A stretch of 64,000 bases of DNA, taken from assembly GCA_944391475.1 (NCBI GenBank), contig CALXTR010000001.1, positions 1 through 64,000 on the forward strand. Reading direction: 5' to 3'. Of the stretch, positions 11,292-33,751 are shown one piece after another. Below the pieces are notes generated by a model. The model was not told where the DNA came from. It saw nothing but the letters and a program-made list of their open reading frames with translations, and made no database searches. A program made the position numbers and the translations under genes. Within the stretch, counting starts at the first letter, position 1. Each line of letters opens with the position of its first letter. The stretch is from an uncultured Alphaproteobacteria bacterium (lineage in GTDB: Bacteria; Pseudomonadota; Alphaproteobacteria; RF32; CAG-239).

Positions 11292-13484
11292 ATGACTAAG
11301 ATTGTGGGCGTGCTGCTGCCGCTACCGTTTAATGATGTATTTGACTATCAGGCTGATGATGACATCAGGCTGGGCGAGATGGTGGCGGTGTCTTTTGGAA
11401 ACCCGCGGCACGGCAAGCAAGATGTGGTCGGTGTGGTCTGGAAAATCGGAAAATCTTCCAACTTAGATGATGCTAAAATCAAACCAATTAAACAGCGTTT
11501 GAGTTTTCCGCCGCTATCGGAGGCAATGCGAAAATTTATCAGCTTTACGGCCTCGTATAATATGGCATTTTTGGGCTTGGTGCTAAAGATGGTGCTAAGT
11601 GTCAAGGCGGTGTTTGAAGACCCCAAACTTTTGGTTTTATACACGCTTTCGGGCAAGACTTTGGCAGAGGCCAAAATCAAAAATTCGGATGCCAGATGGC
11701 GGGTGATGGATTTGCTCAAGCATGCGCCATACACCAAAGCGGAAATTTGTAAAGGGGCGGGGGTTTCGCTCGGGGTGGTGAATACCTTGATTGAAAAAGG
11801 AGTTTTGACCCCGATTGAGGTGGAGCAAAAAAAAGAATTTTTAGTGCCTAATCCGGAATTTCACAAAGTGCAGTTTACGGCTGAACAACAGCAAGCGGCA
11901 GATACTTTAGCCGCGAAAGTGGGGCAGGGTTTTTCGGTGACGTTGCTTGACGGAGTGACCGGTTCGGGTAAGACGGAAGTGTATTTTGAGGCGATTGCCG
12001 AGGCTTTGGCGCAAGGCAAACAAGCTTTGGTGATGGTGCCGGAAATTTCGTTGACCGCGCAGTGGTTATCGCGTTTTGAGCGGCGTTTCGGAGTGGTGCC
12101 GGCCAAGTGGCACTCCGCACTTGGAAACAAGGAACGCGCCGATACTTGGAAAGCGATTGCGGAGAATCGGGCCAAGGTGATTATCGGGGCGCGGTCGGCA
12201 CTTTATCTCCCTTATGCTGATTTGGGAGTGATTGTGGTTGATGAAAGCCATGATAGCTCCTACAAGCAAGAAGATGCCGTTAATTATCAGGGGCGCGATA
12301 TGGCGGTGGTGCGCGGAAAGTTGGAGCAAATCCCAATTATTCTTTCAACTGCTACACCCTCGCTTGAAACTATCAATAATGTGGAAGAAGGCAAATATGG
12401 AATTGTGAAATTGGCCTCGCGGTTTGCGGCGGCTGAGCTTCCGGAAATTCGGGTTCTAGATTTGCGCAAAGATAAGCCGGTGAAAGGTTCGTGGGGTGTT
12501 TCGTGGTTGGCGCCGACTTTGGTTGAGGCCTTAAAAGAAAACTTGGAAAAAGGTGAACAGTCGATGCTGTTCTTGAATCGCCGCGGATATGCACCGCTTA
12601 CCATTTGTCGGGATTGCGGTCACCGAATCCAATGTCCGCATTGTACGGCTTGGCTGACAGAACACAAAAACACCAACTCTTTGGTTTGTCACCATTGCGG
12701 ATACTCAATGTCGATGCCCAAGACTTGTCCGGAGTGTCATTCTGAAACCGGATTGACGGCTTGCGGTCCGGGGGTGGAGCGGGTGGCCGAAGAGGTAAAA
12801 ATGCGCTTTCCGTCAGCAAGAGTGAGGGTGATTTCCAGCGATATTACCGCCAGTGTTGCGGAGGTTTCGGCGGTGATTGCTGAGATGGAAAGAGGCGAAG
12901 TGGATATTCTTATCGGGACGCAGATTTTAGCCAAAGGGCACCATTTCCCGAGTTTGACTTTGGTAGGGATTGTTGATGCGGATTTGGGTTTGATGGGAAG
13001 TGATTTGCGCGCCTCAGAGCGCACGTTTCAGCTCTTGTCCCAAGTGGCAGGGCGAGCCGGACGCGGCAACAAAAAAGGCATGGTGTATATGCAAACTCTG
13101 TGTCCGGAAAATGCGGTTTTGAAGGCTTTGATTTCGGGTAATCGGGAAGAGTTTTTGAAGCTGGAAAAAGATAGTCGGAGAATCTTGAAAATGCCGCCGT
13201 TTGGAAAGCTAGCGGCGATTATTGTCAGCGGGGCTAACCGTGAGGCGACCGAAAAAACGGCCCTATGGTTGGGGCAAACGGCGCCAAACAATGAATATGT
13301 CACGACCTTGGGACCGGCACCGGCGCCGATGTATATGTTGCGTAACAAATATCGCTATCGGTTGTTGATTAAGACTGCAAAATCTATAGCCCTTCAACAG
13401 CTGATTAAGGATTGGCTAGGCAAGGTGAATATTCCCTCAACAGTGCGAGTGGAAGTTGATGTTGACCCATATTCTTTCTATTAG
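11292..13484 (+). CDS. priA: Primosomal protein N' (PriA helicase)
   Basis: 730 aa from the ATG at 11292, which has GGAGGG 5 nt upstream. N-terminal 3'-DNA-end binding domain (VGVLLPLPFNDVFDY), a winged helix, helicase domain with Walker A (GVTGSGKTE near residue 221), Walker B DESHDSSYK and LNRRGYAP, then a zinc-binding cysteine array (CRDC, CPHC, CHHC, CPEC near residues 438-490), and motif VI (SQVAGRAGRG). It restarts replication at stalled forks by loading the replisome. Its last 4 bp overlap the convergent XRE gene. All helicase and zinc residues are present. Confidence 0.96.
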   Translation: MTKIVGVLLPLPFNDVFDYQADDDIRLGEMVAVSFGNPRHGKQDVVGVVWKIGKSSNLDDAKIKPIKQRLSFPPLSEAMRKFISFTASYNMAFLGLVLKMVLSVKAVFEDPKLLVLYTLSGKTLAEAKIKNSDARWRVMDLLKHAPYTKAEICKGAGVSLGVVNTLIEKGVLTPIEVEQKKEFLVPNPEFHKVQFTAEQQQAADTLAAKVGQGFSVTLLDGVTGSGKTEVYFEAIAEALAQGKQALVMVPEISLTAQWLSRFERRFGVVPAKWHSALGNKERADTWKAIAENRAKVIIGARSALYLPYADLGVIVVDESHDSSYKQEDAVNYQGRDMAVVRGKLEQIPIILSTATPSLETINNVEEGKYGIVKLASRFAAAELPEIRVLDLRKDKPVKGSWGVSWLAPTLVEALKENLEKGEQSMLFLNRRGYAPLTICRDCGHRIQCPHCTAWLTEHKNTNSLVCHHCGYSMSMPKTCPECHSETGLTACGPGVERVAEEVKMRFPSARVRVISSDITASVAEVSAVIAEMERGEVDILIGTQILAKGHHFPSLTLVGIVDADLGLMGSDLRASERTFQLLSQVAGRAGRGNKKGMVYMQTLCPENAVLKALISGNREEFLKLEKDSRRILKMPPFGKLAAIIVSGANREATEKTALWLGQTAPNNEYVTTLGPAPAPMYMLRNKYRYRLLIKTAKSIALQQLIKDWLGKVNIPSTVRVEVDVDPYSFY

Positions 13485-13744
13485 TCAGGTGAGATTAAGG
13501 GCAGTTTTTTCTCAAAACTTATGTTCAAATTGTAGTGATATTTATAAGCCAATGCGTGGAGGGTAGGTATTTGCATTTTGCGGATATCGCCATTTTCAAG
13601 ATTGAGAAGATGCTCTAATCCGATATGCAACATTTTAGCGGCGGCTTCCGGCGATAAGTCTTGCTCTAATCTCATATTGCGGATTTGTTCACCAATCGCT
13701 TTTTGGCACTTTTGCCAGGCTTGGCGGCGGTAATTGTGACTCAT
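13481..13744 (-). CDS. Small XRE-type helix-turn-helix protein, copy 1
   Basis: 87 aa from the ATG at 13744, with AAGGGAG about 9 nt upstream. The pattern IGEQIRNMRLEQDLSPEAAA, then LHIGLEHLLNLENGD and IPTLHALAYKY, matches a Cro/C1-type five-helix domain, followed by a short basic tail (NISFEKKLPLISPD). The family binds DNA as a repressor or activator. A clear paralogue lies at 33258, with the same length and tail (ISFEKKL). Both are preceded by the same ~200-nt structured leader and promoter, so gene and leader behave as one cassette. The stop codon overlaps priA tail to tail by 4 bp. Target unknown; autoregulation through the leader is my inference. Confidence 0.8.
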   Translation of the reverse strand: MSHNYRRQAWQKCQKAIGEQIRNMRLEQDLSPEAAAKMLHIGLEHLLNLENGDIRKMQIPTLHALAYKYHYNLNISFEKKLPLISPD

Positions 13745-13943
13745 AGTTCTAAACTCCCTTTGGTTTCTGGTTAAAAGAAACCACCTTGATAACAATTCAA
13801 GGTGGGGAGTTCACAACTGCCAATAGAACAGTCGACCTTCTTCGTTATGCTCAAGGCACACTTATACCGGTCGCTCCCCATTCAAGGAGCTATTTTTCTA
13901 TTGGAGGAGTTGTGATACTCCGCACCCGGCTCACCCGAGTGCA
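13745..13943 (-). promoter_or_regulatory. Structured leader RNA of XRE gene, copy 1
   Basis: ~199-nt leader read on the minus strand. In order: a 5' hairpin (GCACTCGG, loop GTGAG, CCGGGTGC); a long closing stem (GGAGT..CACAACT with AGTTGTG..ACTCC, then CCAATAGAA with TTCTATTGG) that encloses a conserved core (GCTCC hairpin GGAGC, then GACC...GGTC); a hairpin CCACCTTGA/TCAAGGTGG; a hairpin GGTTTCT/AGAAACC; and finally the AAGGGAG ribosome-binding site. The core is almost identical in the copy at 33519, while the stems differ with compensating changes. The last two hairpins share their GG, so they may compete. A cis-regulator or a processed small RNA is possible. Confidence 0.75.
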
Positions 13944-13948
13944 GTTAA

Positions 13949-13976
13949 AGCTTAATCATTCTTACCAAAATTGCAA
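13949..13976 (-). promoter_or_regulatory. Promoter of XRE leader, copy 1
   Basis: On the minus strand: TTGCAA, 16-bp spacer, TAAGCT. Both boxes and the spacing are identical in copy 2 (33724-33751), although the spacer sequence differs, which supports a real promoter about 6 bp before the leader. Confidence 0.7.
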
Positions 13977-14158
13977 GCAGAATTTGCCGCCATTAACCCC
14001 AAAATCTAAATGGCTAAATAAAACTTATCTATGCGAATCGGCTGATTGATTCTCGTTGCGGATAAATGCGTTTGATGGCTTGTAAAATCATGGATTCATT
14101 AATAAATTAGAAATAATTTGTTGCGTATGATAAGCGTAGTTCAAATGATTTTCACAGA

Positions 14159-14722
14159 GTGAGTAAATTGAAAAAAATTTCTAAATCGAAAATTGCCGTT
14201 ACTTACGCTTTGGCCCTTTTTGAGGCCGCAAGTGAGAAAAAAGCCGTGGCTAAGGTTTATGATGATGTGAAAAAACTCCAGGCCGAAATGAACCATGATG
14301 CCGTGCTGGTGAAGTATTTTGCTAACCCGTTGTGGAATCGGGAGGCAAAAAAAGATGCTCTCGCCGCCGTGGCTAAAAAAATGAAACTTAGTGCCGAATC
14401 TCTTAATTGCCTCGATATCGTAATTGATAACGAACGCTGGAACGTGATTAGAGAAATTTTGCAGGAGTTTGTGCATCTGTATCATCAGAAAAATAATATT
14501 GCTGAGGTGGAAGTCCAATCGGCGGTCGAACTCTCAACCGCGCAAGCGAAAAAACTCGAATCTGCGCTCGAGAATTTACTCAAACAAAAAGTGCTGGTTT
14601 CTTATCTGGTCAAGCCTGAAGTCTTGGGCGGTCTGAAAGTTAAATATGGTTCAAAAATGATTGATGATACCTTGCTTGGTAAACTCAATCGGATGGAACA
14701 AGTGATGAAAGGTGGACAATAA
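14159..14722 (+). CDS. atpH: ATP synthase F1 subunit delta
   Basis: 187 aa, first gene of the F1 operon. Delta/OSCP family pattern: [15 protein letters not shown] at the N-terminus (helical bundle that binds the alpha crown) and the C-terminal [25 protein letters not shown]. It links F1 to the F0 peripheral stalk on the cytoplasmic side. The start is a GTG with only a weak upstream ribosome-binding site; no ATG is available until residue ~47. The stop codon overlaps the atpA start (TAATG). The F0 genes are not adjacent, as usual in alphaproteobacteria. Confidence 0.93.
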
Positions 14723-32997: not shown

Positions 32998-33076
32998 GTG
33001 CTCGTCTAGCGGGTGACTAATACAGAAATAATGTCACCCCTCGACTACTTTAGTAGTCGTCAAGGGGGCTTCGAGT
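32998..33076 (+). repeat. Partial palindrome unit and GACTACT hairpin
   Basis: CTCGTCTAGCGGGTGACTAA starts another left motif that is not completed. It runs into a separate hairpin (CGACTACT, loop TT, AGTAGTCG) flanked by CACCCCT and AAGGGGG. A similar GACTACT-type hairpin lies at 49983 (ACGACTA/TTAGTCGT). Confidence 0.5.
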
Positions 33077-33081
33077 TAGTT

Positions 33082-33203
33082 TTTAATAATCGGAAGGTTG
33101 TTTTTTTAGTTAAAAATTCGAAGATCCCTGGACGTTTTTCTCCGAAAAACGAGGGATGACTTTAAATATTGCTAATGCAATCGAGGGATGACCCGTGCGA
33201 CGG
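33082..33203 (+). repeat. REP-like repeat (ATCCCTGGACG type), copy 1
   Basis: TTTAATAATCGGAAGGTTGT, a T tract, AAATTCGAAGATCCCTGGACG-type sequence, then hairpin CGTTTTT/AAAAACG closed by TCCCT/AGGGA, GATGAC, and a second half-unit (GCAATCGAGGGATGAC). A shorter copy lies at 49893. The following 50 bp are relatively GC-rich (GTGCGACGGGTGCGCGGCGG) and hold no gene I can recognise. Confidence 0.7.
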
Positions 33204-33257: not shown

Positions 33258-33518
33258 TTATGCTCGCTGAACTAGTTTTTTCTCAAAACTTATCTTCAAC
33301 TTATAATTATATTTATAAGCCAGTGCATGAAGGGTGGAGATTTGCATATTTTTTAGATATCCATCTTCTAAGTAAAGCAAATGATTGGTGCCGGTATGCA
33401 GTATTTCGGCGGCGGTTTCGGGTGACAAATCTAACTCTAAGCGCATATTGCGGATTTGTTCGCCAATTTCTTTGCGGCATTCCTGCCAAGATTTAATACG
33501 GTTACGATGATGTCCCAT
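33258..33518 (-). CDS. Small XRE-type helix-turn-helix protein, copy 2
   Basis: 86 aa paralogue of the protein at 13481. Shared core: EIGEQIRNMRLELDLSPETA, then LYLEDG, MQISTLHALAYKYNYKL and the tail ISFEKKL. The helix-turn-helix segment and hydrophobic pattern are kept although many surface residues differ, so both copies appear under selection. ATG at 33518 with AAGGGAG upstream. Leader and promoter are the same type as in copy 1. Unlike copy 1 it is not next to priA but between a repeat cluster and glmM, so the cassette is not tied to one neighbourhood. Confidence 0.8.
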   Translation of the reverse strand: MGHHRNRIKSWQECRKEIGEQIRNMRLELDLSPETAAEILHTGTNHLLYLEDGYLKNMQISTLHALAYKYNYKLKISFEKKLVQRA

Positions 33519-33718
33519 GGTTCTAAACTCCCTTTAGGTTTCTAGTTAAAAAGAAACCGCCCTAGCTTTCCTAAGGCGGGGAGTTCGAAACTGTATACAG
33601 AAACAGTCGACCTTCTTCGTTATGCGCAAGACATACTTATACCGGTCGCTCCCCATTCAAGGAGCTTTCTTTCTGTATAAGGAGTTTCGACACTCCACAC
33701 TCGGCTCACCCGAGTGCA
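33519..33718 (-). promoter_or_regulatory. Structured leader RNA of XRE gene, copy 2
   Basis: ~200 nt on the minus strand, same layout as 13745-13943. 5' hairpin GCACTCGG/CCGAGTGT; long stem GGAGT..TCGAAACT with AGTTTCGA..ACTCC and TATACAGAAA with TTTCTGTATA (copy 1 has CACAACT/AGTTGTG and CCAATAGAA/TTCTATTGG in these places); the same internal core with GCTCC..GGAGC and CGACCGGTATAAG; hairpin CCGCCTTAG/CTAGGGCGG; hairpin GGTTTCT/AGAAACC; then AAGGGAG. Paired changes on both sides of the stems argue for a conserved RNA structure. Confidence 0.75.
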
Positions 33719-33723
33719 GCTTA

Positions 33724-33751
33724 AGCTTATCTTATCTCACAAATTTTGCAA
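33724..33751 (-). promoter_or_regulatory. Promoter of XRE leader, copy 2
   Basis: TTGCAA, 16-bp spacer, TAAGCT on the minus strand, the same boxes and spacing as copy 1. Confidence 0.7.

Follow-up and report, generated by a model that had tools for sequence, protein, structure and literature searches.

What is the structured RNA that stands twice in this DNA ahead of a small helix-turn-helix (HTH) gene, and what does it do for that gene? The window, i.e. the whole stretch of 64,000 nt that was analysed, belongs to a genome of 1.55 Mb, which is labelled G000 (other genomes are labelled G###, loci L### and contigs C#). The original prediction described a leader in two places with the same promoter TTGCAA-16-TAAGCT. 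All elements named there are confirmed, and they lie on the minus strand. The features are as follows.

About 13773-13945, minus strand: structured RNA copy 1, from the 5′ hairpin to the terminator U-tract (covariance model R1, 172.8 bits)
About 33549-33720, minus strand: structured RNA copy 2 (R1, 163.4 bits)
13949-13976, minus strand: promoter of copy 1, with TTGCAA at 13971-13976, a spacer of 16 nt and TAAGCT at 13949-13954
33724-33751, minus strand: promoter of copy 2, with TTGCAA at 33746-33751 and TAAGCT at 33724-33729
13922-13942, minus strand: P0, the 5′ hairpin; double changes in 7 of 8 pairs
13906-13921, minus strand: hairpin H1, GGAGU(AUCACA)ACUCC, whose loop is P1a (decoy a1); H1 changes in relatives, and P1 is 100% paired
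13896-13904, minus strand: P2a, CCAAUAGAA (decoy b1), a perfect complement of 13820-13828 and hypervariable between copies
13886-13890, minus strand: P3a, GCUCC, the local partner of the switch strand (covariation, strand-swap test)
13873-13879, minus strand: switch strand (PXa, S), GGGGAGC, with P3a or PXb as partner (inverted-repeat search, strand-swap test)
13834-13872, minus strand: hairpin P4 with the conserved internal loop AUAAG/CGAAGAA; double changes in 4 of 5 pairs, and the internal loop of the Rfam family RF02221 is similar
13816-13832, minus strand: hairpin H5, ACUG(UUCUAUUGG)CAGU, whose loop is P2b (antisense b′); paired changes in remote relatives
13804-13815, minus strand: P1b, UGUGA, and PXb, ACUCCCC (antisense a′), with H1a/P1a, PXa or the SD as partners
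13773-13805, minus strand: predicted intrinsic terminator, CCACCUUGA-UCAAGGUGG-UUUCUUUU; 7 pairs were counted, and all 27 copies have them in standard form
13745-13758, minus strand: SD region, GGGAGUUUAGAACU, 86% complementary over 14 nt to 13805-13818 (P1b-PXb)
13481-13744, minus strand: XRE-type HTH protein of 87 aa, copy 1 (Pfam, PDB profiles, AlphaFold model)
33258-33518, minus strand: HTH protein of 86 aa, copy 2

The promoter form is conserved in other copies as TTGCAA-N-TAATAT/TATAAT; a simple consensus promoter scan made no call at the copy 1 promoter. The stems that had been claimed to change on both strands between the window copies do so. The long stem (P1) is TCACAACT/AGTTGTGA (13908-13915 and 13811-13818) in copy 1 versus TCGAAACT/AGTTTCGA in copy 2, and the second (P2) is CCAATAGAA/TTCTATTGG (13896-13904 and 13820-13828) versus TATACAGAAA/TTTCTGTATA. 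The paired change CCACC/GGTGG versus CCGCC/GGCGG is also present, and the stem that carries it is the intrinsic terminator. An inverted-repeat search of copy 1 recovers P1 and P2 at these positions with 100% complementarity, together with PX (13803-13809/13874-13880), the terminator (13781-13789/13797-13805) and a second small hairpin over the terminator U-tract (13761-13768/13776-13783).

Covariation was analysed in an alignment (A2) of 27 copies, and R1 was likewise built from 27 copies. Standard pairs make up 94.3% of the helix cells in P0, H1, P1, P2, P3, P4, H5 and the terminator. Double changes are found in 192 cells, versus 13-46 when the partners are slid, and the covariation score is 0.422 versus 0.046-0.091. 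The covariation first noted between two copies is thus far above chance in 27 relatives. In relatives H1 becomes GGUGU:ACACC or GGGU:ACCC, and in remote ones the H5 pair ACUG:CAGU becomes ACUA:UAGU or ACCAU:AUGGU. The switch strand and PXb pair as GGGGAG:CUCCCC, GGCGGAG:CUCCGCC, GGUGGAG:CUCCACC, GAGGAG:CUCCUC and GGCCAGAAG:CUUCUGGCC across copies. When strands are swapped between copies, the mean helix length falls from 6.55 to 4.69 for P2, 4.79 to 3.81 for P1, 7.50 to 6.49 for PX and 7.49 to 6.94 for P3; the own-strand lengths of all four helices lie beyond every swap. P1 and P2 sequences are nearly private to each copy in genome G032, where 44 P2b and 40 P1b sequences occur among 48 copies.

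The order of parts is P0 - H1a[P1a]H1b - P2a - P3a - S - P4 - H5a[P2b]H5b - P1b - PXb - terminator - SD - ATG. With P1a in the H1 loop and P2b in the H5 loop, P1 and P2 can form as long nested helices or else as pseudoknots. One nested fold does not describe the whole RNA, since several strands can choose between two or three partners. For the read-through leader of either window copy, the predicted fold of minimum free energy (-82.7 and -81.7 kcal/mol) sequesters the SD, and a fold constrained to contain PX would be 6-8 kcal/mol less stable.

The cassette is far more numerous than the two copies originally described. Within the genome of 1.55 Mb, BLAST gives nine matches and R1 gives 17, two of which are one copy split by an insert, and up to 63 R1 matches are found elsewhere, in G032. 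By R1 search the RNA is present in 72 of 82 genomes of the same family; a class-wide search with stricter filters (E 1e-6) matched 19 of 385 genomes. Named records with matches are mainly uncultured Alphaproteobacteria, several of rumen or gut origin. Viral contigs were searched with the pattern GACTG..CAGT..CTCCCC, and R1 confirms none of the three matches; the gut form of the RNA is thus not seen in viral contigs. Some RNA units stand in tandem without an ORF, each with its own promoter and terminator and with intact P1/P2. Such arrays are observed ahead of one HTH ORF in G029 (C2:66955-67616), G036 (C7:26400-27305), G098 and G025.

The splitting insert is a MITE-like element of ~330 bp with terminal inverted repeats (GGCCCCTAAATCCCCC...). 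It adjoins PXb and occupies the same internal RNA position in L087 and L448 (G000:C10:51680-52148 for L008/L087 and G002:C26:3665-4155 for L448). A third copy at G002:C4:794-1266 shows the same split BLAST match.

Different kinds of gene stand downstream. In most gut genomes a small XRE protein follows, and most RNA copies lie 10-60 nt upstream of an ORF. The two window proteins, originally described as diverged HTH paralogues, are indeed XRE-type by Pfam HTH matches, PDB profile matches and an AlphaFold model (pLDDT 90) that resembles C.BclI and HigA2; the copy 1 protein alone falls slightly under the Pfam cut-offs. The XRE ORF is under purifying selection (median dN/dS 0.14). The proposed unit of a covarying RNA and a regulator is supported. 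In G032 the same RNA is found ahead of a longer XRE protein, of pilin-like proteins (recognised by eye from GRSMVEMLGVLAI) and, in 31 of 43 scanned cases, of secreted LRR_5 (BspA-type) proteins. A longer XRE protein, which may resemble PraR/PhrR of rhizobia, also follows the RNA in the window genome (C8:26371) and, in another family, at L234. One type of RNA precedes some 40 proteins of the secreted LRR_5 and pilin-like kinds in G032, and several are close to contig ends. Dispersed palindromic repeats (GTCATCCCTCG...AGGGATC, CCCTTGACGACTAC..GTAGTCGAGGGG) are seen downstream of several HTH genes (window 33010-33180; L003, about 2000-2120; L006, about 1960-2110).

RNA modules also vary under a constant protein. 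At one orthologous site two species encode an identical protein behind different P2-P4 modules (L003/L083 vs L040). L032 (G002:C4:29738-29908) is a chimeric RNA with mismatched P2 arms from two types. Together, the two cases indicate that copies exchange modules. A link of RNA type to protein type within each copy was considered and is ruled out, as RNA modules differ under the identical protein of L083 and L040. The priA-atpH site (window 13481-14159; L448, L452) carries the cassette in the window genome and in G002 and is empty in G004; with two sister species filled and a third empty, gain and loss are indistinguishable. Cassette ends were inspected for the terminal repeats of a mobile element, and none were seen.

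The RNA had not been recognised as a member of any known family. Our searches point instead to a diverged relative of sRNA-Xcc1 (RF02221). A scan of the window at Rfam 15 gathering thresholds finds two tRNAs only. RF02221 gives 15.5 bits (E 4.5) on window copy 1, far below its gathering score of 53 bits and thus below the membership threshold, and R1 has no direct match to RF02221 loci. The kinship therefore rests on bridging loci. In related Alphaproteobacteria, R1 and RF02221 coincide in position at about a dozen loci (L234, two in L236, L107, L046, L427, L428, L429, L431, L432, L438 and L439), and R1 was built without them. An unbroken chain of relatives thus joins the two. RF02221 matches are sub-threshold at L234 (E 2e-5 to 7e-5), L107, L046 and L236. 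The closing helix around P4 and the second hairpin of RF02221 are present in the gut RNA, and PX, P4 and H5 covary. Judged from sequence, the gut RNA is very probably kin to sRNA-Xcc1.

In Xanthomonas, sRNA-Xcc1 is an RNA of ~100 nt by Northern (PMC2996969) and is found upstream of symE in integron cassettes (PMC12444791); a cluster of five is described in Xylella (PMC12189769). The title of Chen 2011, cited in PMC12444791, presents it as a trans-acting, integron-borne sRNA and not as a decoy-bearing leader. We find RF02221 in 57 of 398 Pseudomonadota genomes, and a 19-base pattern of its core has at least 120 matches in viral contigs. These RNAs occur in phages and prophages, ahead of antirepressors (Bro-N, KilA-N, Rha, P22_AR) and SymE. 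The domains downstream are SymE_toxin, Bro-N, KilA-N, P22_AR_N and Phage_pRha, and in annotated phages the gene behind the RF02221 relative is labelled antirepressor.

Such gene partners recall another phage RNA. The C4 locus of phage P1 has the layout a1b1/C4/a2b2, with a decoy upstream and copies of the target sequence where ribosomes bind the antirepressor operon. C4 controls Ant (PMC8201110), C4 and c4-a1b1 are given as motifs (PMC2864571), and sRNA-Xcc1 and C4 are both named as separate annotations (PMC12189769). RF02221 loci carry a decoy upstream of the Rfam model, and its sequence recurs around the SD of the gene that follows; UCUAAACU in L283 and CCCUAUCAG in L297 appear in the decoy and again directly before the AUG. 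The antisense matches its own RBS over 6.90 nt in 30 RF02221 loci (swapped loci 5.27, sd 0.17) and over 6.77 nt in 62 viral loci (swapped 5.39, sd 0.12). Its match to its own upstream decoy is 8.23 versus 5.91 (sd 0.18) in RF02221 loci and 7.37 versus 4.85 (sd 0.08) in the gut lineage. As far as our searches show, a C4-like sRNA-Xcc1 is a new claim within the literature searched. L286, a prophage-like locus, has an sRNA-Xcc1 match and a sub-threshold c4-2 match.

For the downstream RBS of the gut lineage, an exact-match test is negative (5.05 vs 5.04 swapped). The duplex of P1b-PXb with its own SD has -11.50 kcal/mol versus -10.20 (sd 0.18) when swapped, an effect that is present in G000 and a mixed set and absent in G005 and G032. 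PXb agrees with the bases after GGAG in 67 of 123 cases, compared with a maximum of 65 in 2000 shuffles, a count that is confounded by descent. The gut lineage has thus kept the decoy pairings, and strongly so. Half of the site-blocking pairing appears to survive in it, weakly, and is lost in G032.

We consider it reasonably probable that the RNA is a cis-acting, C4-like antisense leader, a host-borne and multiplied branch of sRNA-Xcc1, which would block its own gene unless refolded. It would have two antisense segments, P1b-PXb and the H5 loop strand P2b, which may pair with the 5′ decoy of the same transcript (H1a/P1a and P2a). In phage members they would alternatively pair with the decoy copy that surrounds the RBS of the gene behind them. 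Genes of the gut Alphaproteobacteria no longer have the P2 copy, but P1b-PXb still faces their SD, and the terminator lies in between. By default the transcript would end at this terminator and give an RNA of ~170 nt. A read-through transcript would fold with its SD buried until some trigger makes the switch strand leave P3 and form PX instead. The RNA would presumably descend from phage. Its position ahead of unrelated genes (small XRE, LRR_5, pilin-like, antirepressors and SymE) favours action in cis. The ORF-less tandem RNAs that keep promoter, terminator and P1/P2 are unexplained by a purely cis role.

The best reading and its rivals overlap in part, so that our confidences in them do not exclude one another. 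As a riboswitch, the RNA would bind a small molecule through P4 and its conserved internal loop; binding would decide between P3 and PX and so free or hide the SD of genes for regulators and surface proteins. The internal loop AUAAG/CGAAUAA and the joining segments are strongly conserved, the switch strand has two covarying partners, and one RNA, also in tandem, serves many unrelated genes, among them those for surface proteins and pilins, which resembles signalling regulons. However, the relatives ahead of prophage antirepressors and SymE argue against it, as antisense-RBS pairing already explains the conserved helices there, and the apical part of P4 is missing in many copies. We think a riboswitch unlikely. 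Literature searches turned up no published riboswitch or RNA motif that goes with XRE genes and fits this one. A low probability is also given to a trans-acting RNA, whereby the terminated ~170-nt RNA would pair through its private P1b/P2b with other mRNAs, of other copies or incoming phages, while the downstream gene is expressed separately. The own promoter and terminator, the ORF-less tandem units, the P2b that is almost always unique (44 of 48 in G032) and the ~100-nt species in Xanthomonas (PMC2996969) fit this idea, but most copies lie 10-60 nt ahead of an ORF, and in predicted folds the antisense strands are taken by the decoy or the SD.

The frequent small HTH protein raises the question of autoregulation, in which this protein would bind its own leader RNA. 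HTH proteins of such kind are known, and Aca2 of phages does so. Yet the same RNA stands ahead of LRR and pilin-like genes, and P2/P4 modules differ between orthologous copies with identical protein (L083, L040), which makes autoregulation very unlikely in our view. A selfish repeat whose structure is kept for its own spread would account for the high copy number, the module exchange and the priA-atpH site that is filled in G000/G002 and empty in G004. It would not account for the near-constant ORF distance, the purifying selection on the ORF and the RBS complementarity, nor does it agree with cassette ends that show no terminal repeats; we regard it as extremely unlikely. Decidedly unlikely, too, is a wider form of the antisense idea, namely that a phage lysogeny-control RNA has turned into a bacterial genome-wide regulon of up to 63 copies with private P1/P2 codes. 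Each LRR, pilin or XRE gene would then be switchable on its own, and copies without an ORF would target other copies or incoming phages in trans.

The cis-acting antisense leader, if correct, would link an orphan sRNA family described as trans-acting to the C4 logic of phage immunity. It predicts the genes that RNAs of the sRNA-Xcc1 type control and the bases involved. It would also show that a small genome can hold a very large set of genes headed by a phage-type RNA switch. Whether sRNA-Xcc1 relatives block the antirepressor gene behind them can be tested directly in laboratory phages.

A comparison with known systems shows where this RNA stands. The window proteins share fold and sequence profile with XRE/Cro-type regulators (HTH_3 clan) and differ from them in being short, without effector domain and very diverged between copies. 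Type III toxin-antitoxin systems (ToxIN-like) have the same succession of promoter, pseudoknotted RNA, terminator and small ORF, and tandem RNAs as well. Unlike these, the gut RNA is not built from short repeats and its ORF is XRE, LRR or pilin; no ToxN-like endoribonuclease was found beside the RNA, where the downstream proteins are XRE, LRR_5 and pilin-like, and SymE partners exist on the RF02221 side only. C4 RNA of P1/P7 (RF01695, clan CL00128, with c4-a1b1 RF03163) shares with the phage relatives the decoy, the antisense RNA and the RBS copies at an antirepressor. Rfam searches of the window, copies and relatives give no match to RF01695, and a weak c4-a1b1 match falls precisely at the 5′ decoy of the bridging locus L432. 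The likeness of the gut RNA to C4 is probably one of working, without a match to the C4 model. Compared with sRNA-Xcc1, the gut RNA has an intrinsic terminator beside PXb, matches the RBS over a shorter stretch and is partnered with genes that are not of phage type. In both, a PX helix encloses P4 (internal loop AAUA../GAAUAA) and H5, and both carry upstream an H1 with the P1a loop and P2a, which we find here outside the Rfam model.
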